Positions 11,469-23,024 of a stretch of DNA of 64,000 bases are shown one piece after another (within the stretch, counting starts at the first letter, position 1; the number at the start of each line of letters is the position of its first letter). The translations under genes and the position numbers were made by a program. Origin of the DNA: Sulfurimonas marina (GTDB taxonomy: Bacteria > Campylobacterota > Campylobacteria > Campylobacterales > Sulfurimonadaceae). The stretch is taken from positions 1,116,001 through 1,180,000 of the forward strand of contig NZ_CP041165.1 in assembly GCF_014905095.1 (NCBI RefSeq), read 5' to 3'. Under the pieces are notes generated by a model. That model had not been told where the DNA came from and made no database searches. It was given only the letters and a program-made list of their open reading frames with translations.

Positions 11469-13402
11469 CCAATAGGTGTACCCGCTTTTTTAGGTTTTTC
11501 CGGTCTTACTAAACATAAACCATCTTCATCTTTAGCAGCAAGAAGCATTCCCTCACTCATCATTCCCATAAGTTTTGCAGGTTTTAGGTTCGCTACTACA
11601 CAAACTTGAGTATTCATAAGGTCTTCAGGAGAGTAGAACTCTTTAATACCCGCTACCACTTGACGGTTTTTCCCTTCACCAAGATCTACTTGAAGTTTTA
11701 GTAGTTTTTTACTTTTTGGAACCTCTTCAGCTTCTACAACAGTACCAACTTTGAGTTTTGTTTCAAAGAATTGTCCGATCTCGATCAGATTGTCTTCCTC
11801 TTTTTCCTCTTTAGGTTCCTCTTTTTTAGCCTCTTTAGGAGGATTTGGCTCAGCTTTTGGAGCTTCCGGCATTAAAGGCTCTTCAATACGCGGGAAAAGT
11901 GGTGGAACTTTTTTGATATTAAATACTTTTAACAGTTTTTTATCAAGTACAAGCTCTTGGTAACTCTCATTGTTGATCGTAAAATCAAGTGCATCTGCAA
12001 TAGTAGCAGTAGTTTTTGGCATAATAGGGTGAAGCATCACTGCTGCTTTTGCTAAAATGTTTGCAACAAGTGCTACAGTTGCAAGGGCTTGATCTTTTTG
12101 ATCGTTTTTCATTTTTACCCACGGTTCATGCTCTTGGATAGCACCGTTTCCGATCGAGAAAAGTTTCCATAACTCTTCAAGGTATCTATGTGGCTGTAAG
12201 TTTTCCATGAAAGTATCTAAAGACTCAATAACCTCATTCATTTGAGCAAGCTCTTTAGCATGGTATTTTTCAACATCTACACTATCGATCTCAAAGTCGC
12301 TGTATTTTCCACTCATACCGATAATACGGTTAAGTAAGTTTCCAAGATCGTTGCTTAGTTCTGAATTGATACGATCGATGAATGCTCTTTGAGAGAAATC
12401 CCCATCTTGACCGAAAGGTACTTCACGAAGCATGAAGTATCTTAAGTTCTCAGCGCCGTAAGCATCTGCTACCTCTTTAGGAGAAACAACGTTTCCTTTA
12501 GATTTACTCATCTTCTCACCGTCACGTGTCCACCAACCGTGTGCACCGATGTGTTTTGGAAGAGGTAAGTCTAAACTCATTAAGAATGCCGGCCAGTAAA
12601 TAGCATGGAAACGTAAAATGTCTTTTCCTACAAGTTGAATGTCAGCAGGCCAAAAATCTTCCATTTTAGCATCGCCGTTACCATACCCTAGAGCCGTAAC
12701 ATAGTTGAGTAGGGCATCTAACCATACATACATAACGTGTTTGTCATCATTTAACTTTTCTGGCATTTGAACACCCCAAGTAAATGACGTACGTGTAACT
12801 GAAAGATCTTTTAGTCCGCTTTTTACAAAGTTAATTACTTCATTTGCACGTGATTTAGGCATGATAAAGTCAGGATTTTCTTCATAATGTTTTAAAAGTG
12901 CATCTTCATATTTTGAAAGTTTAAAGAAGTAACTCTCCTCTTTAACGATGTTTGTACTTCTACCGCAATCCGGGCAGAACTCTCCGTCGATTAGTTGAGT
13001 TTCCGGGAAGAAAGTTTCACAACTTACACAGTAGTGTCCTTCATATTCCCCTTTATATACATCACCTTTTTCATACATCTTCATAAATGCGTGCTGAACA
13101 CCTTTTTTATGGTCAGCATCAGTTGTACGGATAAACTTGTCATAGCTGATCTCAAACTCATCCCAAAGGTTTTTAAACGAAGCACTGATCTCATCAGCAA
13201 ACTGTTGTGTCGGTTTGTTGTTTTTTTGTGCAGACTCTTCGATCTTTTGACCGTGCTCATCAGTTCCAGTCAGAAAGAAAGTTTTCTCATTTTTCAGTCT
13301 GTAGAATCTTGCTAAAGAATCAGCTATAAAAGTTGTATATGCGTGCCCGATGTGAGCCTCTCCATTTACGTAATAAATCGGTGTTGTTATGTATTTACTC
13401 AA
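11465..13402 (-). CDS. metG: Methionyl-tRNA synthetase
   Basis: Class I aminoacyl-tRNA synthetase for methionine. A-H17-I-G-H20 and K-M-S-K-S (around residue 297) are the ATP-site signatures. The zinc knuckle C-V-S-C...C-P-D-C lies near residues 127-147. The C-terminal 100 residues form an EMAP/tRNA-binding domain (V-G-T-V-V-E-A-E-E to the end), joined by a Lys/Glu/Pro-rich linker. The 645-residue length is normal for a dimeric MetRS. It lies between a small Cys-rich protein and the MurF-like gene in the same transcription unit. Confidence 0.97.
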   Translation of the reverse strand: MSKYITTPIYYVNGEAHIGHAYTTFIADSLARFYRLKNEKTFFLTGTDEHGQKIEESAQKNNKPTQQFADEISASFKNLWDEFEISYDKFIRTTDADHKKGVQHAFMKMYEKGDVYKGEYEGHYCVSCETFFPETQLIDGEFCPDCGRSTNIVKEESYFFKLSKYEDALLKHYEENPDFIMPKSRANEVINFVKSGLKDLSVTRTSFTWGVQMPEKLNDDKHVMYVWLDALLNYVTALGYGNGDAKMEDFWPADIQLVGKDILRFHAIYWPAFLMSLDLPLPKHIGAHGWWTRDGEKMSKSKGNVVSPKEVADAYGAENLRYFMLREVPFGQDGDFSQRAFIDRINSELSNDLGNLLNRIIGMSGKYSDFEIDSVDVEKYHAKELAQMNEVIESLDTFMENLQPHRYLEELWKLFSIGNGAIQEHEPWVKMKNDQKDQALATVALVANILAKAAVMLHPIMPKTTATIADALDFTINNESYQELVLDKKLLKVFNIKKVPPLFPRIEEPLMPEAPKAEPNPPKEAKKEEPKEEKEEDNLIEIGQFFETKLKVGTVVEAEEVPKSKKLLKLQVDLGEGKNRQVVAGIKEFYSPEDLMNTQVCVVANLKPAKLMGMMSEGMLLAAKDEDGLCLVRPEKPKKAGTPIG

Positions 13403-13449
13403 TTTTTTTATCCTGTTAAAATTATTGTTGATATTTTATCAAATTTGTC

Positions 13450-13647
13450 TTAAAACTCAAATCCACCCGTATCACCCTTACTCATAGAGTTATACACGGC
13501 ATCTACATACTCTTTGCGAAGTTCACACCCTATATAGTGCTCACATTTGCTGCAACTCTCGGTATTGTGATCTTTTTGGCAGTTTTGAAGTTTTATGATC
13601 ATCTCATCAAGATAGATCTCAAATCTATCTTTTTCTTGATTAGCCAT
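13450..13647 (-). CDS. Small conserved cysteine-containing protein
   Basis: A 65-residue soluble protein with four cysteines ([19 protein letters not shown]), a plausible metal or Fe-S site. It overlaps the fbp 3' end by eight bases and precedes metG, so it is cotranscribed. I do not recognise a characterised family; small proteins of this type occur beside fbp/metG in related genomes as far as I recall, but no function can be given. Confidence 0.65.
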
Positions 13648-14482
13648 TTTGAGAATAAACCTCTTTAACTCTTGCTATCTCATATTTTGAACCGAAGAAA
13701 CATGGAGATGTATCGTGAAGGTGTCTGTACCCAAGCTCTAAAAGTCTACCTTTTCCATCGATCGCTTCACCGCCTGCTTTTTCATATACAAAAGCAAAAG
13801 GGAATACTTCAAATAAACGGCGAAGTTTACCTTCTGGTTTATCGCTAGTTCCAGGGTAGCTGAACAGTCCGCCCCCTTTAAGTAAGATCTGGTGAAGGTC
13901 AGGTACCATACCACCTGAATAACGTAGACGGTATCCCTCTTTAAAGAAAGAATCTACCATCTCTTTATGGTACGGTTCCCAGTTTTGCTGCGTACCGCCC
14001 GGAGCGTTAAGTTTCCCTTTCTCTGTAAGTCTAATCTCTTTAACATACTCAAAATCACCAGCTTGAAGAAGATAAAGTTTTACTTTGTTTTGAGCAAATA
14101 CCATCTCAACTCTCGGTCCATATACTACATAACAAGATGCAACCATGTTTTCAGCACCGAAACCGCCTTCATAGATCCCAAAAATTGAACCAACACTTAA
14201 GTTTACATCTACAAGAGATGAACCATCTAACGGATCGTAAGAGATGAAATATTTCCCGTCTGCGTGTAACTCTTCAGCGTGTTCTTTCTCTTCAGAAGAG
14301 ATTGTATGTACTGCAGCTACTTTTGAAAACTCCTCTTCAATGATCATGTCACATTGAATGTCTAACTGAAGTTGAGTTTCTCCAGAAGAGTTCTCTTGTT
14401 GTGAGTACCCAATATCTTTAATATCTATAGCATTTTTAATTCTTTTTGCACTTCTTTGTATCGCGTCAAATACTTGATTCAT
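13640..14482 (-). CDS. fbp: Fructose-1,6-bisphosphatase class I
   Basis: Hydrolyses fructose-1,6-bisphosphate in gluconeogenesis, needed by an autotroph to make sugars from fixed carbon. The metal-binding motif Y-D-P-L-D-G-S-S (near residue 79) is intact, preceded by S-S-E-E-K-E. The sugar-phosphate-binding [12 protein letters not shown] and G-G-G-L-F-S-Y-P match the family. The length of 280 is slightly short of the usual 330, as in related bacteria. It follows mobB by 14 bases. Confidence 0.93.
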
Positions 14483-14496
14483 CTTTTTTCCTTTGT

Positions 14497-15000
14497 TTAA
14501 ACTTGTTTTGCGTTTTTAAATATCCAAGATATCACTTCGTCTGGATCGTTGAGATTGAGCATATCTACATCACTAGGTACTTTATAATCAACGATATTGA
14601 TACTATCGTCAATCGCCAAAGCATTCATGAAAGGGAAGTAATCCTCATCAATAGTTTTTCTAAAGATACTTATCCTTGGGAGTGGTAACCCTTTTAACCC
14701 TTCAACGAGTAAAACATCGAAGTGATTAAAAAGCCTGATCATCTCATCAAGTGATGATTCCCTTTGAGAAAAGTAAGTTGTTCTGTTTGAAGATGTTACG
14801 ATCACTTCAGCGCCCGTGTCACTGAACTTGTAACTGTCTTTTCCCTCAACATCAAACCTAGCTTTATCTTTGGGATCGTGCTTGATGATTGCAACTTCCA
14901 ACCCGTGTTCATGGATCAGTTTTCTTGCAACTTTAAGTATTAATGTAGTTTTTCCGCTATTAGAAGGTCCTGTAAAACCTACTGCTAATCTTTTTTCCAT
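14497..15000 (-). CDS. mobB: Molybdopterin-guanine dinucleotide biosynthesis adaptor MobB
   Basis: P-loop GTPase-like protein that assists MobA in attaching GMP to molybdopterin. Walker [10 protein letters not shown] is at residue 10, and I-I-K-H-D is the typical MobB segment. The 167-residue length fits. It is the first gene of the minus-strand run mobB-fbp-metG. A molybdenum cofactor role implies molybdoenzymes elsewhere in the genome, such as nitrate or polysulfide reductases (inference). Confidence 0.92.
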
Positions 15001-15065
15001 TGTCGACTTTTTAAAATTTTTAGTAATTATACAGAAGATGAGTTTAAATAAGCTATAATTTCGGC

Positions 15066-15530
15066 ATGAAAATAATAGTAAGTTCCCTAATCGTAATAAG
15101 TTTGTTTACATCGTGTGTCGATAAAAACGGATTTGATAATTTTAATTTTACCCCTGAACAAGAGCAGTGGGAAAACAACCAGATAAATTCTCGAATCAAT
15201 GACGATCAACAACTCCAAGGGACGGTTACTGCCGTATATTTAAATAAAGTAATGCCAAATCTTTATAAAGAGGGAGAGTATTTTTACATATCTCTCTACC
15301 TCAAAGACAGCTCTCAAGAGCTCACTTTTACATTAAACGATCAACCTTCAATATATCTGGAAAAGCTGCCAAACAACGATGAGTTTAAGAAGTTCACAAA
15401 CACTACAAATAAATGGAACAGATACTATCTGGTAGGGTTTTTAGAACAAAAAGATGATGATACTTTGAGTTTGGAAGTTAAAAACGAAAAACTGTTTTCA
15501 AATAAAATGGTTTTTAAGAAGGATGAATAA
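15066..15530 (+). CDS. Hypothetical lipoprotein
   Basis: A 154-residue protein with a lipoprotein signal ending L-F-T-S-C at residue 17, so it is probably anchored in a membrane facing the periplasm. The body is polar and beta-rich, with repeated Y-F-Y-I-S-L-Y-L-K-D-type strands; I recognise no family. A CTATAAT promoter element lies just upstream (about 15053). It stands alone between divergent mobB and convergent yggT. Confidence 0.7.
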   Translation: MKIIVSSLIVISLFTSCVDKNGFDNFNFTPEQEQWENNQINSRINDDQQLQGTVTAVYLNKVMPNLYKEGEYFYISLYLKDSSQELTFTLNDQPSIYLEKLPNNDEFKKFTNTTNKWNRYYLVGFLEQKDDDTLSLEVKNEKLFSNKMVFKKDE

Positions 15531-15540
15531 GACAACTCTT

Positions 15541-15819
15541 TTAGAGATGTCTTAAAAGTGAACTAAGTATCACTATCACTACTTGCAGCGCTATAATAAT
15601 TACAAGCGGTGCCAGGTCAAGTCCGTTAAAGTTTGTAGGGATATATCTCCTTACAAGCGCATACGCAGGGTTTGTGATTCTATATAAGAACTGTACAATA
15701 GGATTGTACGGATCAGGATTTACAAAACTAAGTAACGCCGCGATAATAATCACCCATATATATACATTAATAAGCGATATTAAAATACCGCCTAAGCCTA
15801 CAATAATTTCTGATAACAT
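15541..15819 (-). CDS. YggT family membrane protein
   Basis: A 92-residue protein with two membrane segments and the family pattern L-S-F-V-N-P-D-P-Y-N-P-I-V-Q-F-L-Y-R-I-T-N-P. YggT proteins have been linked to membrane organisation and osmotic stress; the exact job is unclear. It shares one base with the end of the GluRS-like gene upstream and is cotranscribed with it. Confidence 0.88.
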   Translation of the reverse strand: MLSEIIVGLGGILISLINVYIWVIIIAALLSFVNPDPYNPIVQFLYRITNPAYALVRRYIPTNFNGLDLAPLVIIIALQVVIVILSSLLRHL

Positions 15820-17060
15820 TATACAAACTCCCCAAGATAATTTTTAATATATTTATAGATCTCCGCCAAATCTGGACCTTGTTGTGCATTTGAAAGTAAA
15901 ACTCTTAAAGGTTTAAGGATCTTTTCTTCTGTTAAACCTGTTTGTTCTACTATATAGTTTTTTATATCGTTAAACTCTTCAAAATGTGGTGCATTTTTTA
16001 CAGATGCTACGATCTTATCATAATCTTCTTGCAGCTCACTAGGCACATCTCTTTTTTCAAATATAGGTGCAATTTTTGTTTTTAACCCTCTAGTAGTTTC
16101 TACTTCATCAACGTAAAGGCGTGCTAGTTCTCCGATCTCTGCATCTGCGAAACCAACATAACGAGAGAGCTCTTTTGCATCCATTTTTTTCAACTGTTGT
16201 TTGTTAATCTCTTTTAGTTTTTCAAGATCAAATACTACAGGCAGTGGTGATAATTTTGTAAGATCAAACTGCTCTACAGCCTCTTCAAGATCCATTGAAA
16301 TTAAATAGTTTACGATAGCTTCTGGAAGGTAACCTTGCTCTAAAAGTGATGTAACACTTGGAATATCATCGCCAGTAAGAGGCGGGATATGTGCGTATTC
16401 TACTTTTTTATCATACTGTAGGGCATCTCTAACGTAAATCTGTTTTGGAGCAGATTCTATGTGATCTTGGTCTTGGATAACTAAAGAGATATCGTTTAGC
16501 ATATCATCAACAGCCGAAGCAAAATCAGCCATAGGAGTCTTGTCCTGCTTTAGGATCATAAAACTGTCGATCGTATCGGCTTTAAATGTTAACTCACCTT
16601 GGATCGCATCTGTAACCGTAATATCTTTTTTAGGTCTGTGGATACGTACCGTAAAAGGGTTTGTATTGTCGATCACGAGTTCAGCAGGCAAGTTAGCACA
16701 TGCATCGTCATAAAGGTACGGTTTGTTTGCAGCCTCAGCTTCATCCATTTTGCTTTGGATCCAGTCAGGTGAACAGAAACAGCTAAACGCTTTTTTCTCA
16801 TGCATAAGCTGCAGAGCCATAGCAGAGTGGAAACGGAAGTTTTGACTTTCATGGATCGTTTGCGTGTATCTGATCCCGAAAAGATCGAGAATATCGAGGT
16901 ACTCTTTATCTTTCCCTTCTATATTGTTTCTTGTACTTGTATCGTCAACTCTTACAATTAGGTTCTCTTTACGCTGCTGGGCAACTATAAAGTTTATGAG
17001 AGCAACTCTTAAGTCCCCAAGCTCCATATCGCGAGTAGGGCTGAAAGCAAATCTTAACAT
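15819..17060 (-). CDS. gltX2: GluRS2-type glutamyl-tRNA synthetase homologue, catalytic motifs lost
   Basis: Full-length (413 residues) and aligns along its length with the Campylobacterota GluRS2, which in Helicobacter charges tRNA-Gln with glutamate. Key sites are altered. The HIGH-type motif reads D-M-E-L-G-D. The first substrate segment is R-F-A-F-S-P-T-R instead of R-F-A-P-S-P-T-G. The R-G-E-D-H segment reads Q-D-Q-D-H. The KMSKR loop is gone, with L-T-G-D-D-I-P-S-V-T-S directly followed by L-L-E-Q-G-Y-L-P-E-A-I. The C-terminal anticodon-binding part is retained and there are no internal stops. I infer a pseudo-enzyme that no longer aminoacylates; the gene symbol reflects ancestry, not activity. 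It is followed by yggT. Confidence 0.82.
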   Translation of the reverse strand: MLRFAFSPTRDMELGDLRVALINFIVAQQRKENLIVRVDDTSTRNNIEGKDKEYLDILDLFGIRYTQTIHESQNFRFHSAMALQLMHEKKAFSCFCSPDWIQSKMDEAEAANKPYLYDDACANLPAELVIDNTNPFTVRIHRPKKDITVTDAIQGELTFKADTIDSFMILKQDKTPMADFASAVDDMLNDISLVIQDQDHIESAPKQIYVRDALQYDKKVEYAHIPPLTGDDIPSVTSLLEQGYLPEAIVNYLISMDLEEAVEQFDLTKLSPLPVVFDLEKLKEINKQQLKKMDAKELSRYVGFADAEIGELARLYVDEVETTRGLKTKIAPIFEKRDVPSELQEDYDKIVASVKNAPHFEEFNDIKNYIVEQTGLTEEKILKPLRVLLSNAQQGPDLAEIYKYIKNYLGEFV

Positions 17061-17393
17061 CTATATTCCTGCATAATATATTTTTCGGAATTCTATCAAA
17101 TTTTACCTAATAGGGTAATAAAGGAAGATTTCATAAGCTCTAGTCTAATATATTTAACATTTTGATAAAATATTATAGATATACGTTAATAGTTCTACAT
17201 AAAAAACAATACAAAAATCTTATAAAATATTGCAAATTGTAATATTTTTATATAATAATCCCATGTTAAGCACATTAATATACTTTAATGGTATTACATC
17301 AAAAATAATTAAATATTAAGTCATTCTATAGCTAACTTGTATATAATGTACTACTAATAAATAGTTATGTAATCAATATGAAAGAGAAATAAT
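17061..17393. other. 333-bp AT-rich gap between gltX2 and the cassette-like insert
   Basis: No gene is seen. The gap contains a weak hairpin (arms AAAATATT at 17224-17231 and AATATTTT at 17241-17248), a TATAAT at 17251-17256 directly after it, and a second promoter-like TATATAAT near 17341 ahead of the 17394 gene. GTTAAGC near 17265 matches the R' box consensus of integron sites but is too short to count alone. The gltX2 promoter should lie at the left end. Confidence 0.5.
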
Positions 17394-18401
17394 ATGAATG
17401 ATTTAGGCTATCCAGAAAGAACTTCGAGACAGAGTATGGGACAAAAAGGAGAAGCATATATTGATTTTCTAATTTCAAATGTTTTTGACTGGATTTATAG
17501 ACCCGTACATCAAGAAATGGACTTTGGAATTGATGGTTATATTGATATCGTAAATGACACACAAGTAACAGGTTTAAGCATAGGTGTTCAAATAAAATCT
17601 GGTAGTTCATATGTATCTAAGAGAACAAGCGGCGGTATAAAATATGAAGGGAATAATAAGCATCTAAATTTTTATTTAAATCATAAAATCCCAGTTATTT
17701 TAATTGTTGTTGACAATGATTGCAATAATGCATTTTGGGTTGAGTTTGACATTGAAAAAACCACACCTACAACATCTGGATGGTGGATTGAAATACCTGA
17801 AAAAAATATAATTAATATTGACACTAAGCCTTTATGGGAAAATATTGCGGGTGTTCCTGAAGATTTTTCTGACAAAGTTCAAAAGACATGGATGGAATCT
17901 GAATTAATTCAAAATTCTGACCTACTCATTTTTTCTATTCCAAAAGAAGATGTAGATACTGGTTCTATGGATACAGTCTCGGAAATTATTAAAAAGCTGT
18001 CAAAAAACAAAAAAATGCTACTAGACAAAAGGTCATCAGTAGAAATATTTTTTCCTGATTATGATAATGATGAAAGAGAACTCTATGATATACCTGAAAT
18101 TAGACATTGGTTTCAAAATTCAATGGCTCAAAAAATACCTTGGTTTTATTTTTTAAATGGAAAAAATTTAACTATTGGACTGAGTTTATTATTTACTTGT
18201 TGTGTGAATGTAAAGCGTGTAAAAGTTGTTAACAATATACATAAACTTGAGCCTAATCGAGAAGAAATTGAAGAATGGATGAATGAAAATTTCATTAATC
18301 TCAATATTTTCACTGAAAAAAATGACATAGACTTGGAAATAAATAAAGAAGTGAGCAATACAATGGGTGGAGCATTTATGAAAATGTTTTCAAATATCTA
18401 A
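17394..18401 (+). CDS. DUF4365 domain protein, PD-(D/E)XK nuclease-like
   Basis: A 335-residue soluble protein. Residues 15-120 match the DUF4365 pattern: S-M-G-Q-K-G-E-A-Y-I-D-F-L, then D-F-G-I-D-G-Y-I-D-I, then G-V-Q-I-K-S-G, then a segment ending P-V-I-L-I-V-V-D and F-W-V-E-F. Glu, Asp and Q-x-K fall in the order of a PD-(D/E)XK nuclease active site. The C-terminal two thirds are unrecognised. DUF4365 proteins are often found near defence or mobile genes. The gene is AT-rich and followed eight bases after its stop by a 19-bp attC-like half-site that recurs after the next gene. Confidence 0.78.
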   Translation: MNDLGYPERTSRQSMGQKGEAYIDFLISNVFDWIYRPVHQEMDFGIDGYIDIVNDTQVTGLSIGVQIKSGSSYVSKRTSGGIKYEGNNKHLNFYLNHKIPVILIVVDNDCNNAFWVEFDIEKTTPTTSGWWIEIPEKNIINIDTKPLWENIAGVPEDFSDKVQKTWMESELIQNSDLLIFSIPKEDVDTGSMDTVSEIIKKLSKNKKMLLDKRSSVEIFFPDYDNDERELYDIPEIRHWFQNSMAQKIPWFYFLNGKNLTIGLSLLFTCCVNVKRVKVVNNIHKLEPNREEIEEWMNENFINLNIFTEKNDIDLEINKEVSNTMGGAFMKMFSNI

Positions 18402-18408
18402 ATACAAT

Positions 18409-18429
18409 ACCTAACAAATCAGTGGAGCC
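18409..18429 (+). repeat. attC-like half-site, copy 1
   Basis: ACCTAAC at 18409-18415 matches the integron R'' consensus RYYYAAC, and the 19 bases CTAACAAATCAGTGGAGCC (18411-18429) recur exactly at 19467-19485. The right-hand half of an attC site (inverted arm and GTTRRRY) is not recognisable in the 30 bases before the next gene, so this copy is incomplete or degenerate. Confidence 0.55.
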
Positions 18430-18459
18430 CAATCAAAAAGTCGAAAGGTAATAGTTCAA

Positions 18460-19470
18460 ATGAAAAAATGGTTTATTGGTTACCTTAAACAACATGATGA
18501 AAACCATCTGAAATACACTCTGATTGAAGAGATAGATAATAAAGATTTTAGGGAAAAAATAAAAAGAGTATATGATTATGAATATTTAGAAAATTTATTT
18601 TTATTCATAATCAAGAACTTTCAAGACTTCCAAGAATCAATAAAAAACCTAGATACCGACAGTAAGAATAATATTGATGACAATATTAATAACTACTACC
18701 TACAACATCATCAAATTGACATTCAAAGAACATTTTTCAATTTAATAAATTCATACAAACTATCCATAGATCATATAAAGCACACTTTGTCATCCTATGA
18801 AGATAAAGAAGAACAACACTATCAATTCTTATCCAAAATAGCATCATTCTATTATGATACTTTTGCAGGCTATAAAATAATAGAAAACCTCAGGAATTAT
18901 TGTCAACATAGAAGCTTGGCACCACTAGAAATCATTAGAGATTCAGAAGGCAACGTGAAAATTTTTATAACTAAAGAAGCTTTAGTGGAAGATAAAAAAA
19001 TCAGAAATAAAATAAAATCTGAATTAGATAGTGATATTCCTTTTAATTTTATATATTTAGTTATAGAGTGGTTTGAAAAGATACAAGAAATATATAACTA
19101 TTATTTTGATTTATTTGCAGAGTATTCAAAAGACGAAGCCGAATATTTATTATCATATTTTCAACCTGTTAAAAAGGAAATAGATAACAATAATTTAGAA
19201 TTGTACTTATTGGCTGGACACGATGAAAGTCATATAGATCAATATAGCTTTTTACCCACAGAAATCGCTATCAAGATAATTAATAGAACTAAAAAAGAGG
19301 ATTTCAAGAACAATATAGAGTTTATTTCAACTTTTGTTAAAGATTATATAAAAGAACAAGAAGAAAATGAAAATTTCACCAAAATGTTAAAAGAACATGG
19401 CTTGAAACTACCTGAATTTGACACTATTACTTTGAGTGCCATAAACCGATATTTAAAAGGGAAAGGCTAA
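18460..19470 (+). CDS. Unrecognised protein with HEPN-type R-N-x3-H motif
   Basis: A 336-residue, Lys/Glu/Asn-rich, mostly helical soluble protein with no membrane segment or signal. I recognise no named family. Residues 138-152 (Y-K-I-I-E-N-L-R-N-Y-C-Q-H-R-S) contain R145-N146-x3-H150, the form of the catalytic Rx4-6H motif of HEPN ribonucleases, where the residue after Arg is usually polar, and it sits at a helix end as in those proteins. A HEPN-like RNase is therefore possible but unproven. The gene is AT-rich like its upstream neighbour, starts 11 bases after GAAAGG, and is followed by a complete attC-like site. Confidence 0.6.
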   Translation: MKKWFIGYLKQHDENHLKYTLIEEIDNKDFREKIKRVYDYEYLENLFLFIIKNFQDFQESIKNLDTDSKNNIDDNINNYYLQHHQIDIQRTFFNLINSYKLSIDHIKHTLSSYEDKEEQHYQFLSKIASFYYDTFAGYKIIENLRNYCQHRSLAPLEIIRDSEGNVKIFITKEALVEDKKIRNKIKSELDSDIPFNFIYLVIEWFEKIQEIYNYYFDLFAEYSKDEAEYLLSYFQPVKKEIDNNNLELYLLAGHDESHIDQYSFLPTEIAIKIINRTKKEDFKNNIEFISTFVKDYIKEQEENENFTKMLKEHGLKLPEFDTITLSAINRYLKGKG

Positions 19471-19533
19471 CAAATCAGTGGAGCCAATAAATTACCCTGC
19501 GGGCAATTTATTGGCTCATTTTAAACGTTAAAC
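19465..19533 (+). other. Candidate integron attC recombination site
   Basis: A 69-bp element right after the 18460 gene. The left end has TAAC (19468-19471, box GGCTAAC) and the right end GTTAAAC (19527-19533, matching GTTRRRY). Between them, GAGCCAATAAATT (19481-19493) and AATTTATTGGCTC (19505-19517) are perfect 13-bp inverted arms, with CCC-TGC-GGG inside. The two half-sites from TAAC to GAGCC and GGCTC to GTTA are both 18 bases long, as expected for attC. The same sequence could act as a hairpin terminator for the convergent genes, since the stem is followed by ATTTT. The last bases form the rbsK stop codon. Confidence 0.55.
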
Positions 19534-20400
19534 ATCAACTCCTAATCTTGGTATAGAATCCGCAGCTCCTTTTCTTGTAACACAAATACTTGCAGCTTTT
19601 ACAGCTGTTTTTAGACATTTTTCTATTCTTTTTCCGCGTGAAAGCTCGGCTAAAAAGTAACCTATAAAAGTATCACCCGCTCCCGTAGTATCTACCGCCT
19701 TTACTTTGAGTGCATCTACTTTTATAGTTTGTTTGCCTTGAGAGTAGATCACACCTTTTTTGCCAAGCGTTAAAACAACGGCACTTTTTGGGTAAAGCTT
19801 ATCCATCGCTTTTATGATCTTCATAGGCTTTTTCTCACCGCTAAGAGCTTCGCCTTCTGTTTCGTTTATTATAAATATATCTACAAGCTCAAGAGGATAT
19901 TCTTTAACGGCATCACTCATCGGGGCAGGGTTAAAAACAACTTTTAGATCTTTATCTTTTGTTTGTTTTAGTATTTTATCAACCGAGTTTATCTCATTTT
20001 GTAAAAGTACGATGTCACCTGCATTTGCACTTTTGAGTGCTTCTTTTATATCACTAGATTTAAATGTCAGATTTGCCCCGCCGTGGATGATGATCGCATT
20101 TTCCCCCTCAGAATTTACCTGTATAATTGCATGTCCCGTAGGGGCTTTAACTATTTTGACAAGATGCGTATCTATACCTTCTTTTTCCATCTTCTCTTGC
20201 AGCCAAATACCGTCTAATCCTATTTTTCCCACATGGAGCACATCTGCATTTGCACGCGCCAAGGCTATCGACTGGTTAGCCCCTTTACCGCCGCTAAAAA
20301 CAGCATAGTTCTTACTGCTAAGCGTTTCACCCGGACGAACAAAATGATCTACATCATATACATGATCTATGTTTATGGAACCGAAATTGATTATTTTCAT
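19528..20400 (-). CDS. rbsK: Ribokinase (PfkB family)
   Basis: Phosphorylates ribose at O5. PfkB signature 1 (G-G-K-G-A-N-Q-S-I-A-L-A-R) is near residue 37 and signature 2 (D-T-T-G-A-G-D-T-F-I-G-Y-F) near residue 236, with the catalytic Asp in G-A-G-D. The 290-residue length is slightly short of E. coli RbsK (309). It is monocistronic and no ribose transporter is adjacent, so it may act on ribose from nucleoside turnover. Its stop codon lies in the right end of the attC-like element. Confidence 0.9.
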   Translation of the reverse strand: MKIINFGSINIDHVYDVDHFVRPGETLSSKNYAVFSGGKGANQSIALARANADVLHVGKIGLDGIWLQEKMEKEGIDTHLVKIVKAPTGHAIIQVNSEGENAIIIHGGANLTFKSSDIKEALKSANAGDIVLLQNEINSVDKILKQTKDKDLKVVFNPAPMSDAVKEYPLELVDIFIINETEGEALSGEKKPMKIIKAMDKLYPKSAVVLTLGKKGVIYSQGKQTIKVDALKVKAVDTTGAGDTFIGYFLAELSRGKRIEKCLKTAVKAASICVTRKGAADSIPRLGVDV

Positions 20401-20493
20401 AAGTACTCCTGCTTCTTACTATGCATATTATAAGCTCATATGGGGTAAAATGCAATTTTTATAAAGTTTCATAATCAAAAAGGTTTAATAATA

Positions 20494-22752
20494 ATGAGTG
20501 AGCATAAGGATTTTTTACGCACTATTGTCGAAGAGGACTTAAAGTCGGGCAAATATAAAGAGATCATTACAAGGTTTCCCCCTGAGCCAAACGGCTTTCC
20601 TCACATCGGACATGCTAAATCTATCGCTATTAACTTTGGGATCGCACGTGACTACAACGGTTACTGTAACCTTAGAATGGACGACACTAACCCTACAACT
20701 GAAGACACAAAATACGTTGAGGCTCTTAAAGATGCCGTAGAGTGGTTAGGGTTTGAGTGGAAAGACAACGTTCGTTATACGTCTGATTATTTTGACAAAC
20801 TTTACGAATATGCAATAGAGCTTGTGAAAATGGGTAAAGCTTACGTTGATTCACTTGACCAAGAGACGATGAAAGAGTACCACGGTACAGTTACACAGCC
20901 GGGACGTCGCAGTGAGTATGCTGAGCGTTCTGTTGAAGAGAATCTTGACCTATTAGAGAGAATGAAAAACGGTGAGTTTAAAGACGGCGAGCATGTTCTT
21001 CGTGCCAAGATAGATATGTCTGCACCAAATATGAAGATGCGTGATCCTATTCTTTACCGTATCCGTCATGCTCACCACTACAGAGCAGGGGACAAGTGGG
21101 CGATCTACCCTTTATATGATTTTGGTCACTGTTTATCTGACTATATCGAAGGTGTGACTCATTCGATCTGTACGCTTGAATTTGAAAACAATCGTGAGGT
21201 GTACGACTGGGTACTTGACACTCTGAAACTTGAACCGCCGCGCCCTTACCAGCATGAATTTGCAAGACTTGGGATCAACTACACGGTTATGAGTAAAAGA
21301 AAGCTTTTAGAGCTTGTAAACGGTAACTATGTAAGCGGTTGGGACGATCCACGTCTTCCTACGATCGCAGGATACAGAAGAAGAGGGTATACACCTGAAT
21401 CTATTTTAAACTTTTGTGATTCTATAGGTATTGCAAAAGCAAACTCAACTGTTGATGTTGCACAGCTTGAGTTTGCGATCAGAGATGATCTAAATACTAA
21501 AGTACCGCGTGTAATGACGGTACTTGATCCTCTAAAAGTTACGATCAAGAACTATGAGGGCAGCGAAGAGCTAGAAGCTTCATACTATCCTGAAGATGTA
21601 CCAAAAGAGGGTTCAAGAAAGATACCTTTCTCTAAAACTATCTACATAGAGCGTGAAGACTTTTCAGAGAATCCTCCAAAAGGATACTTCCGTCTTACAC
21701 CTGAGCAGCCTGTACGTCTAAAACATGCTTACATTATCACATGTAAAGAGATTGTAAAAGATGCTGATGGAAACATCACAGAGATTATAGCTGAGTACAA
21801 TCCTGAGTCTAAAAGTGGATCAGACACTAGCGGTATAAAAGTAAAAAGTGCGATCCAGTGGGTAGATGCTGCATCTGCTAAAACAGTAGAAGTAAGACTT
21901 TATGACAGACTCTATAAAAATGAAGCACCTGAAGGACTTGAAGATCTTAATCCTGATTCGTTAAAAATTATCAAAAATGCTTTAATCGAACCAGCTGTTA
22001 TCACAGAGAGACCAGATGAGAGATTTCAGTTTGAAAGACAAGGGTACTTCTACGCTGATCCTGTTGATTATACAGATGAAAACCCGGTATTTAACAAGAT
22101 CGTAGGTCTTAAAGACTCTTATGCTAAAAAAGAAAAAGCACCAAGAGGTGAGCGTAAACCGCAAGAGAAAAAAGTGCAAATTGACGGTGAAGTAGAGCCT
22201 ATGAGTGAAGCAGAGCAGGCACTTTTTAACAGATATACTACTGAACTAAAATTAAATAATATGGTTGCAGATATTTTAGCTCGTGATAAGCAGCTTTCAG
22301 ACTTTTATCTTGAAGCTATCAGTTTATCTACAGTTAATCCAAATCCGGTTGGACTGGCTAACATTGTGACAAATGAAGTAGCCAGAGAATTAAAAGATAA
22401 GTCGAAAGATGAGTTAAAATTCAATCCTGTACAAATAGGTGAACTCTCAAAAATGGTTGAGGATGGGACTATCTCAAATAAAATTGCTAAGCAAGTATTT
22501 GAAGAGATGGTAAAAAGCGGAGAAAATCCTGCACAAGTAGTTGAAGCTAAAGGACTTATACAAATAAGTGATCCTGCACAAATTTCACCTATTATTGATG
22601 AGATAATTGAGAAAAATCCGGACAATGTAGAAAAATTTAAAGCAGGAAATACAAAACTGTTAGGTTTCTTTGTAGGACAGGTGCTAAAAGCAACAGGTGG
22701 CAAAGCAAATCCACAAGTTGTAAATAAGCTTGTAGCCGAAAAATTACAATAG
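20494..22752 (+). CDS. glnS: Glutaminyl-tRNA synthetase with C-terminal YqeY/GatB-tail domain
   Basis: Charges tRNA-Gln directly with glutamine. The class I motifs are intact: P-H37-I-G-H40 and V-M-S-K-R around residue 267. Residues from about 340 to 560 form the beta-barrel anticodon-binding domains. From about residue 575 to the end (752) the sequence is a YqeY/GatB C-terminal-type helical domain (L-N-N-M-V-A-D-I-L ... G-T-I-S-N-K-I-A-K-Q-V-F-E-E-M), which most GlnRS lack but Deinococcus-type GlnRS carries; there it helps tRNA binding. The presence of GlnRS means the transamidation route is not needed for tRNA-Gln. It is followed by a hairpin terminator. Confidence 0.95.
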   Translation: MSEHKDFLRTIVEEDLKSGKYKEIITRFPPEPNGFPHIGHAKSIAINFGIARDYNGYCNLRMDDTNPTTEDTKYVEALKDAVEWLGFEWKDNVRYTSDYFDKLYEYAIELVKMGKAYVDSLDQETMKEYHGTVTQPGRRSEYAERSVEENLDLLERMKNGEFKDGEHVLRAKIDMSAPNMKMRDPILYRIRHAHHYRAGDKWAIYPLYDFGHCLSDYIEGVTHSICTLEFENNREVYDWVLDTLKLEPPRPYQHEFARLGINYTVMSKRKLLELVNGNYVSGWDDPRLPTIAGYRRRGYTPESILNFCDSIGIAKANSTVDVAQLEFAIRDDLNTKVPRVMTVLDPLKVTIKNYEGSEELEASYYPEDVPKEGSRKIPFSKTIYIEREDFSENPPKGYFRLTPEQPVRLKHAYIITCKEIVKDADGNITEIIAEYNPESKSGSDTSGIKVKSAIQWVDAASAKTVEVRLYDRLYKNEAPEGLEDLNPDSLKIIKNALIEPAVITERPDERFQFERQGYFYADPVDYTDENPVFNKIVGLKDSYAKKEKAPRGERKPQEKKVQIDGEVEPMSEAEQALFNRYTTELKLNNMVADILARDKQLSDFYLEAISLSTVNPNPVGLANIVTNEVARELKDKSKDELKFNPVQIGELSKMVEDGTISNKIAKQVFEEMVKSGENPAQVVEAKGLIQISDPAQISPIIDEIIEKNPDNVEKFKAGNTKLLGFFVGQVLKATGGKANPQVVNKLVAEKLQ

Positions 22753-22804
22753 TTTACTATATAGTAAATTATATAGACTAGTTCTTTTACACTGGTCTAT
22801 TTTG
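22753..22804 (+). terminator. glnS rho-independent terminator and adjacent palindrome
   Basis: TAGACTAGT (22774-22782) pairs with ACTGGTCTA (22791-22799) with one G-T pair and is followed by TTTT. Just before it, starting right after the glnS stop, is the perfect 16-bp palindrome TTTACTATATAGTAAA (22753-22768). Confidence 0.7.
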
Positions 22805-22949
22805 TAATAGAATAGGGCAACCCTTTAGGGTTACCATTATGCATATAATCTGTTAAGATTTTGCAAGTCTAACTATTTAAAATTTCTTCAATATTTTGAA
22901 ATTTTATACAAGTAAATTGAAATTTGATTGTTTTAAAAAGGAGAATATT

Positions 22950-23024
22950 TGGTGACCCCACGGAGACTCGAACTCCGGTAACATGGATGAAAACCATGGA
23001 TCCTAACCGCTAGACGATGGGGCC
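22950..23024 (-). tRNA. tRNA-Glu (anticodon TTC)
   Basis: Reads GGCCCCATCGTCTAGCGG... on the minus strand, with the conserved T-loop GTTCGAGTC. The acceptor stem GGCCCCA pairs with TGGGGTC (one G-U pair). The anticodon loop is TTTTCAT with anticodon TTC, flanked by CATGG/CCATG. The 3' CCA is encoded. The gene stands alone, 4 bases downstream of a hairpin with T4. Confidence 0.96.

Follow-up and report, generated by a model that had tools for sequence, protein, structure and literature searches.

Two neighbouring genes of the window – the whole 64,000-nucleotide stretch analysed, bases 1,116,001-1,180,000 of a single-contig genome of 2.26 Mb – raise the question of whether they are integron cassettes and, if so, how they came to lie where they do. 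ORF1 (17394-18401) and ORF2 (18460-19470) are AT-rich, are read from the same strand and each stand upstream of one copy of a 19-mer (CTAACAAATCAGTGGAGCC, at 18411-18429 and 19467-19485). The repeat had been reported in an earlier note on this DNA and is indeed present at both places; it found no match in 100 shuffles, and a genome-wide search, which the same note had proposed, returned the two window copies and no third anywhere in the 2.26 Mb. The pair sits between two genes that we take, by reading, to be gltX2 (15819-17060, minus strand) and rbsK (19528-20400, minus strand). In steps of 500 bases, G+C content is 25-32% over 17000-19499 compared with 32-42% over 13000-16999 and 19500-22999. 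The features discussed below are as follows.

17061..17185, no strand assigned: relic of the ancestral spacer between divergent gltX2 and glnS; right end approximate
17365..17393, plus strand: possible start of cassette 1; GTTATGT, a short leader, then ATG, resembling the GTTAnnn cassette starts of relatives
17394..18401, plus strand: ORF1, 335 aa; DUF4365 and a CRR6/DUF1817-like domain; cassette cargo
18409..18444, plus strand: truncated attC of the CAATCAAAAA subtype, reduced to R''-L'' and the left arm of the stem
18460..19470, plus strand: ORF2, 336 aa; no known family, LRNYCQH motif; cassette cargo
19465..19533, plus strand: complete attC, 69 bp; model score, fold and L-box covariation
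19528..20400, minus strand: rbsK-like kinase, the right neighbour; stop codon supplied by the R' box of the attC

On the left, 17061..17185 retains a glnS-promoter-like stretch, and its motifs match, by eye, those between gltX2 and glnS in 13 relatives. Where cassette 1 begins, possibly at 17365..17393, is a guess; neither an attC nor an attI was found to the left of it. Rfam matches at gathering score across the whole window were confined to RNase P and two tRNAs, and a search of the window for an integrase remnant found none.

The 69-bp element at 19465-19533 is an attC site, as both its anatomy and its membership of a family – by sequence and by structure – attest. It opens with an R'' box, GGCTAAC (19465-19471, with TAAC at 19468-19471), and closes with the complementary R' box, GTTAAAC (19527-19533); between them lies a perfect 13-bp stem (GAGCCAATAAATT/AATTTATTGGCTC, 19481-19493/19505-19517). 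The consensus of the R'' box is RYYYAAC, from which GGCTAAC departs at one base. TAAC/GTTA ends, GTTAAAC and stem are all as first described, and the attC reading then placed on them is right. So is the gene-then-attC plan: the stop codon of ORF2 falls within the R'' box, and relatives share the arrangement. The bottom strand, folded as DNA, reaches -16.3 kcal/mol compared with -5.6 +/- 1.9 for shuffled sequences (z -5.7), and -15.3 kcal/mol when the R boxes are forced to pair. On the L'' side an unpaired G can be read from the sequence at 19480 or, equivalently, 19481. At 69 nt, and with a bottom strand that forms a hairpin, the element falls inside the 57-142 nt range given for attC in the accessible part of PMC2727003, where an L'' G that has no partner and is extrahelical in the folded bottom strand is described as an attC hallmark.

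Family membership was established across a set of 99 genomes, comprising the genome itself and 98 relatives. BLAST with the 81 bp of 19460-19540 gave matches in 42 of the 99 (own genome included), often several per genome and approximately 0.5-4 kb apart (for example in G004 C32, G011, G012, G039 and G005). A covariance model, R1, built from 26 sites of the group with the window site among them, recovered 96 sites from 23 sources (E <= 1e-5; the count takes in the 26 used to build it), and within each source the sites share one strand. The window site scores 85.1 bits, a value that is partly circular given its place among the 26; BLAST matches, covariation and association with integrases depend less on R1.

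Because the 16-pair RNAalifold structure in R1 leaves the L-box partly unpaired, the outer L-box was tested separately. For this we used 56 distinct sites from 26 sources, with a stem of at least 7 bp and selected blind to the outer L-box, which are related rather than independent; the null was provided by 1000 shuffles of right arms among sites. With one R''-side base unpaired, 168 of 224 positions are Watson-Crick pairs, compared with a shuffle mean of 110 +/- 5.5 and a maximum of 129. Four other registers gave 56, 49, 86 and 34 of 224, and the 86 (register +1), set against its own shuffle maximum of 76, is a far weaker excess. This analysis supersedes an earlier run restricted, after fixing the geometry, to 28 of 65 distinct sites (37 dropped). 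The sites listed by the finder range from 67 to approximately 137 bp, again within 57-142 nt, the top of the stem is variable, and the bases that follow GTTA differ between sites. Some long attC-like sites with large variable tops (L036:9667-9802, L039:10735-10871 and L033:6779-6912, approximately 134-137 bp) stand beside short ones on the same stretches.

The window attC was also compared with one from a class 1 integron, which closes the 3' end of the aac(6')-Ib4 gene carried by pJBCL41 (L167:5675-5746). There the L'-R' half is identical, by eye, at 14 of 16 positions over CTCAT.T.AAACGTTA, whereas the L'' half and the stem are unlike those of the window attC, and R1 finds no match in it at E <= 1. 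Three plasmid loci of other phyla yielded one attC with the finder, too few for an other-phyla model.

Sites of this family keep company with integron integrases. Eight of 20 stretches fetched from relatives carry one (the query itself plus seven at 73-85% identity to it), 0.6-8.5 kb from the nearest R1 site; these stretches were picked for attC hits or integrases and are not a random sample. Chromosomal integrons of relatives (L033, L034, L035, L037) have the same attC type and the same gene-then-attC plan as the locus; they keep intI with the array, whereas the present genome is without it. A less biased count comes from a survey of 397 Campylobacterota genomes, all at least 90% complete and the own genome among them. 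R1 attC at E <= 1e-4 are present in 93 of the 397 and in 30 of 68 genera, with site counts that are lower bounds (at most 12 candidates scored per genome, under stricter filters). The integron-integrase model TIGR02249 matches 39 genomes at E <= 1e-60 and 34 over its curated cut-off, figures from which some integrases of draft genomes may be missing. Of the 39 integrase genomes 36 are attC-positive, as against 57 of the other 358 (Fisher p 2e-22, nominal since the genomes are related). The view that integrons are not typical of this group, expressed in the earlier note, does not hold against 93 attC-positive and 34 integrase-positive genomes, and Campylobacterota already appear in the list of phyla with integrons in the part of PMC8618304 available, where three routes to CALINs are also given.

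Within the genome itself, the best match to TIGR02249 reaches 63.8 bits, far below the cut-off of 265, and none is found at E <= 1e-60. The earlier note had reported no integrase gene in the window, and this absence of an integron integrase extends to the whole genome. With intI absent in cis, the locus is not a complete integron. Among the 99 genomes 24 exceed the cut-off, compared with none of 14 control genomes; all 14 controls match below it, none at E <= 1e-60, through proteins that we presume to be ordinary Xer-like recombinases. Four relatives carry integron-integrase genes that are apparently broken, with split matches or internal stops (G016 C48; G047 C1:671209-672110; G055 C27; G054 C1:1289402-1290139), and integrase loss may be in progress in several relatives.

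R1 also finds at least two further attC in the same genome, a lower bound since 150 of 1140 candidates were scored. One (C1:1213916-1213987, 44.6 bits; L108:4917-4988) directly follows a lone ORF of 213 aa, is next to what we take, by reading, to be a hydrogenase gene, and has an R'' box decayed to TAGC; the other (C1:1255901-1255973, 44.5 bits; L109:4902-4974) lies just after a single ORF of 191 aa and has a decayed R' box. The two look like separate lone cassettes.

The first copy of the repeat is less complete. Judged by its sequence, 18409-18444 is the left-hand part of an attC of a second subtype and more than a chance 19-mer, because 18412-18444 agrees at 30 of 33 aligned positions with a complete CAATCAAAAA-subtype attC (L034:6249-6319), all within the left half of that site. 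It has no right half and no fold (z 0.97). This had been conceded as the main weakness of a cassette reading, and the half is indeed missing; the 30/33 match points to a real attC in which a deletion, as we infer, removed the right half together with the start of the ORF2 cassette.

The history of the junction can be followed in relatives. Among 29 gltX2 loci (L075-L103), 13 have a measured divergent glnS gap, and all 13 of these adjacent pairs lack the insert, with gaps of 93-185 bp (those of L098 and L102 are identical in sequence). In two others (L091, L094) glnS is near and in tandem; the remaining 14, some of them at contig ends, have no glnS within the flank and are uninformative. An R1 search of the 13 and four other gltX2 loci returned a single match, at E 0.97. 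Comparing this junction in sister strains had been suggested at the outset, and the insert proves not to be conserved at the locus. Close copies of ORF1 or ORF2 are likewise absent from the 98 relatives (one weak match to ORF1, zero to ORF2). As to the right neighbour, rbsK has matches at E <= 1e-3 in 14 of 60 genomes searched; besides the own genome a close one (85% identical) is found only in the sister species G002, the others being at most 36% identical, and rbsK may itself be a late arrival at the junction.

In G002 four complete attC precede rbsK (array L072:3875-7890) and the cassettes are quite different. One encodes a protein of 347 aa with an RNxxxH motif (RNKIVH); the others we take, by reading, to be YCII-like, glyoxalase-like, a small membrane protein, PhzF-like and acetyltransferase-like. 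No integrase of G002 exceeds the TIGR02249 cut-off. Directly at the 3' end of its rbsK is a short stretch resembling an R'' box (L072:7863-7875); it could be left over from the last attC or be due to chance. On the simplest account, an array already stood next to rbsK in an ancestor, its cassettes were replaced over time, and it lost its integrase or was parted from it.

Together these data make us confident that what survives here is a small piece of an integron cassette array, now immobilised. Integron recombination is established knowledge (PMC2727003, in the part accessible), and by that mechanism an integron integrase would have joined circular cassettes by recombining their attC sites, folded from the bottom strand, and so have brought ORF1 and ORF2, with an attC behind each, up to the 3' end of rbsK. 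A later deletion would have left the first attC without its right half and the second cassette without its beginning. With no integron integrase left in the genome the pair would now be frozen, and the one complete attC might still be usable if an integrase entered.

In a variant of this reading, an integrase supplied in trans put the cassettes off-target into a non-attI (attG-like) chromosomal site, and the locus was never part of an integron; we regard this as rather unlikely. It draws on the two other attC of this genome, which stand alone with one ORF before each, and these keep it a rival for part of the story. Consistent with it, 57 of the 93 attC-positive genomes have no integrase match at E <= 1e-60, and some of their sites are scattered (G265, G423); insertion at attG (Loot 2024) is cited in the accessible parts of PMC12444791 and PMC11023631. 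Against it, the four-attC array before the same rbsK in G002 suggests that an array was inherited at this place, and nothing attG-like was recognised at the left junction. That 19465-19533 is a transcription terminator and the 19-bp repeat incidental is very improbable: a strong stem between two convergent genes would suit such a role, but its R boxes, covarying L-box and cassette setting are found again in genome after genome, and the 19-mer has no chance expectation. As a candidate Rho-independent terminator the element was rejected, the only site listed in 17000-20600 being 20027-20040; a terminator-only score, named beforehand as something that would count against attC, was thus not obtained. 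We give equally little credence to a miniature transposon or dispersed palindromic repeat, which could account for an inverted repeat with lone copies in the genome but not for copies in relatives that lie approximately 0.5-4 kb apart in one orientation, on stretches often bearing integron integrases, with bases after GTTA that vary by site and with attC in 36 of 39 integrase genomes.

Taken as a remnant of a cassette array, the locus comprises one complete and one half attC. This places it below the default of IntegronFinder 2.0, which according to the available part of PMC9024848 defines a CALIN as at least two attC without an integrase. The CALIN-like remnant suggested earlier thus stands as an integrase-less cassette remnant and falls as a formal CALIN, having 1.5 attC. 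CALINs of Xanthomonas (PMC12444791, as far as accessible) and of Sulfurimonas autotrophica (a table in PMC10295459, seen in part) likewise consist of attC cassettes with no integrase nearby; the present locus differs from them in its one complete attC and half of another, and its genome is without any integrase. The same portion of PMC10295459 reports an In0 as well as the CALIN in S. autotrophica. With integrons listed for the phylum and a CALIN reported in the genus, the notability claimed for the remnant was overstated: the locus is known in kind, an ordinary relic of a gene-capture system already described.

The cargo looks, from its domains and motifs, nuclease-like. ORF1 matches PF14280 (DUF4365) at E 1.6e-33 (116.2 bits, cut-off 24.3), a domain that we take, by reading, to be PD-(D/E)XK-like (DFGIDG...VQIKSG), and above cut-off PF08847 (E 3.2e-7), a CRR6/DUF1817-like domain; the NCBIfam CRR6 match is below its own cut-off. 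A Pseudanabaena plasmid protein annotated as DUF4365 + DUF1817 has the same architecture (34% over 97%). The closest PADLOC model is an Argonaute-associated nuclease (Aga_REase, E 3e-21), and a PDB match to DREN-APAZ (9jsb) is weak (E 0.018). ORF1 thus shares its N-terminal domain with the DUF4365 nuclease domain of DREN-APAZ, a short-Argonaute partner, and of Aga_REase, and differs from both in ending with the CRR6/DUF1817-like domain. In G028 a weak DUF4365 relative (E 6.9e-4) begins just after a 45-bit attC.

ORF2 has no Pfam match over cut-off, no NCBIfam match at E <= 0.1 and, among plasmids, zero matches at E 1e-5. It has matches in eight of the 397 genomes: its own, six weak (E 1.8e-4 to 8.3e-4) and one convincing, in G193 (25%, E 4.5e-15). 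The G193 homolog, whose start lies 14 bp downstream of a 76.2-bit attC, shares the LRNYCQH, which we take for a HEPN-like RNxxxH motif; that ORF2 is a HEPN-type RNase is possible, a guess from this motif. A single-sequence structure model (mean pLDDT 46) was too poor for use. A role in phage defence, for which the pair would be candidates, would fit nuclease-like cargo.

The wider pool of attC in Campylobacterota is the more interesting result. What began with one locus ended in a sequence signature by which attC are recognised in 93 of 397 genomes, and 57 of the 93 have no clear integrase. The part of PMC8352920 available describes eleven taxon-specific attC models, none for Campylobacterota, so that with the signature it becomes testable where the cassettes of these bacteria and of their plasmids come from. 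Among the literature matches listed, a search that mostly excluded subscription papers, none describes a phylum-wide spread of this attC type. Tentatively, and with rather less than even confidence, we suggest that Campylobacterota keep a phylum-wide cassette pool of their own, with one attC type, which moves between chromosome and plasmid (Aliarcobacter, Sulfurospirillum) and is often scattered after integrase loss, and that ORF1 and ORF2 are an unexplored nuclease-type cargo from it, probably directed against phages.

A stricter DNA pattern, applied to named genomes, picked out 48 stretches, 44 titled Campylobacterota or Epsilonproteobacteria and 4 otherwise; the genera include Sulfurimonas, Sulfuricurvum, Sulfurospirillum, Sulfurovum, Arcobacter, Poseidonibacter and Halarcobacter. 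In viral contigs the pattern occurred 0 times. It is also seen in contigs of metagenome-assembled genomes (MAGs) titled Gracilibacteria, Proteobacteria, Flavobacteriaceae and Gammaproteobacteria (L121, L122, L135, L144), either transferred cassettes or misbinned, and, unexpectedly, in two contigs (L110, L142) of a MAG titled Helicobacter pylori PMSS1, possibly misnamed. A search of 72,556 plasmid records with the window attC gave three matches at E <= 1e-3. Each of them is from Campylobacterota, and the site examined on each plasmid lies immediately downstream of a same-strand gene: two from Aliarcobacter cryaerophilus (L171:5001-5063 and L173:4001-4058; mussel and chicken meat) and one from Sulfurospirillum (L172:5001-5067). 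On one of the Aliarcobacter plasmids (L171) a TIR-domain gene lies near the attC.
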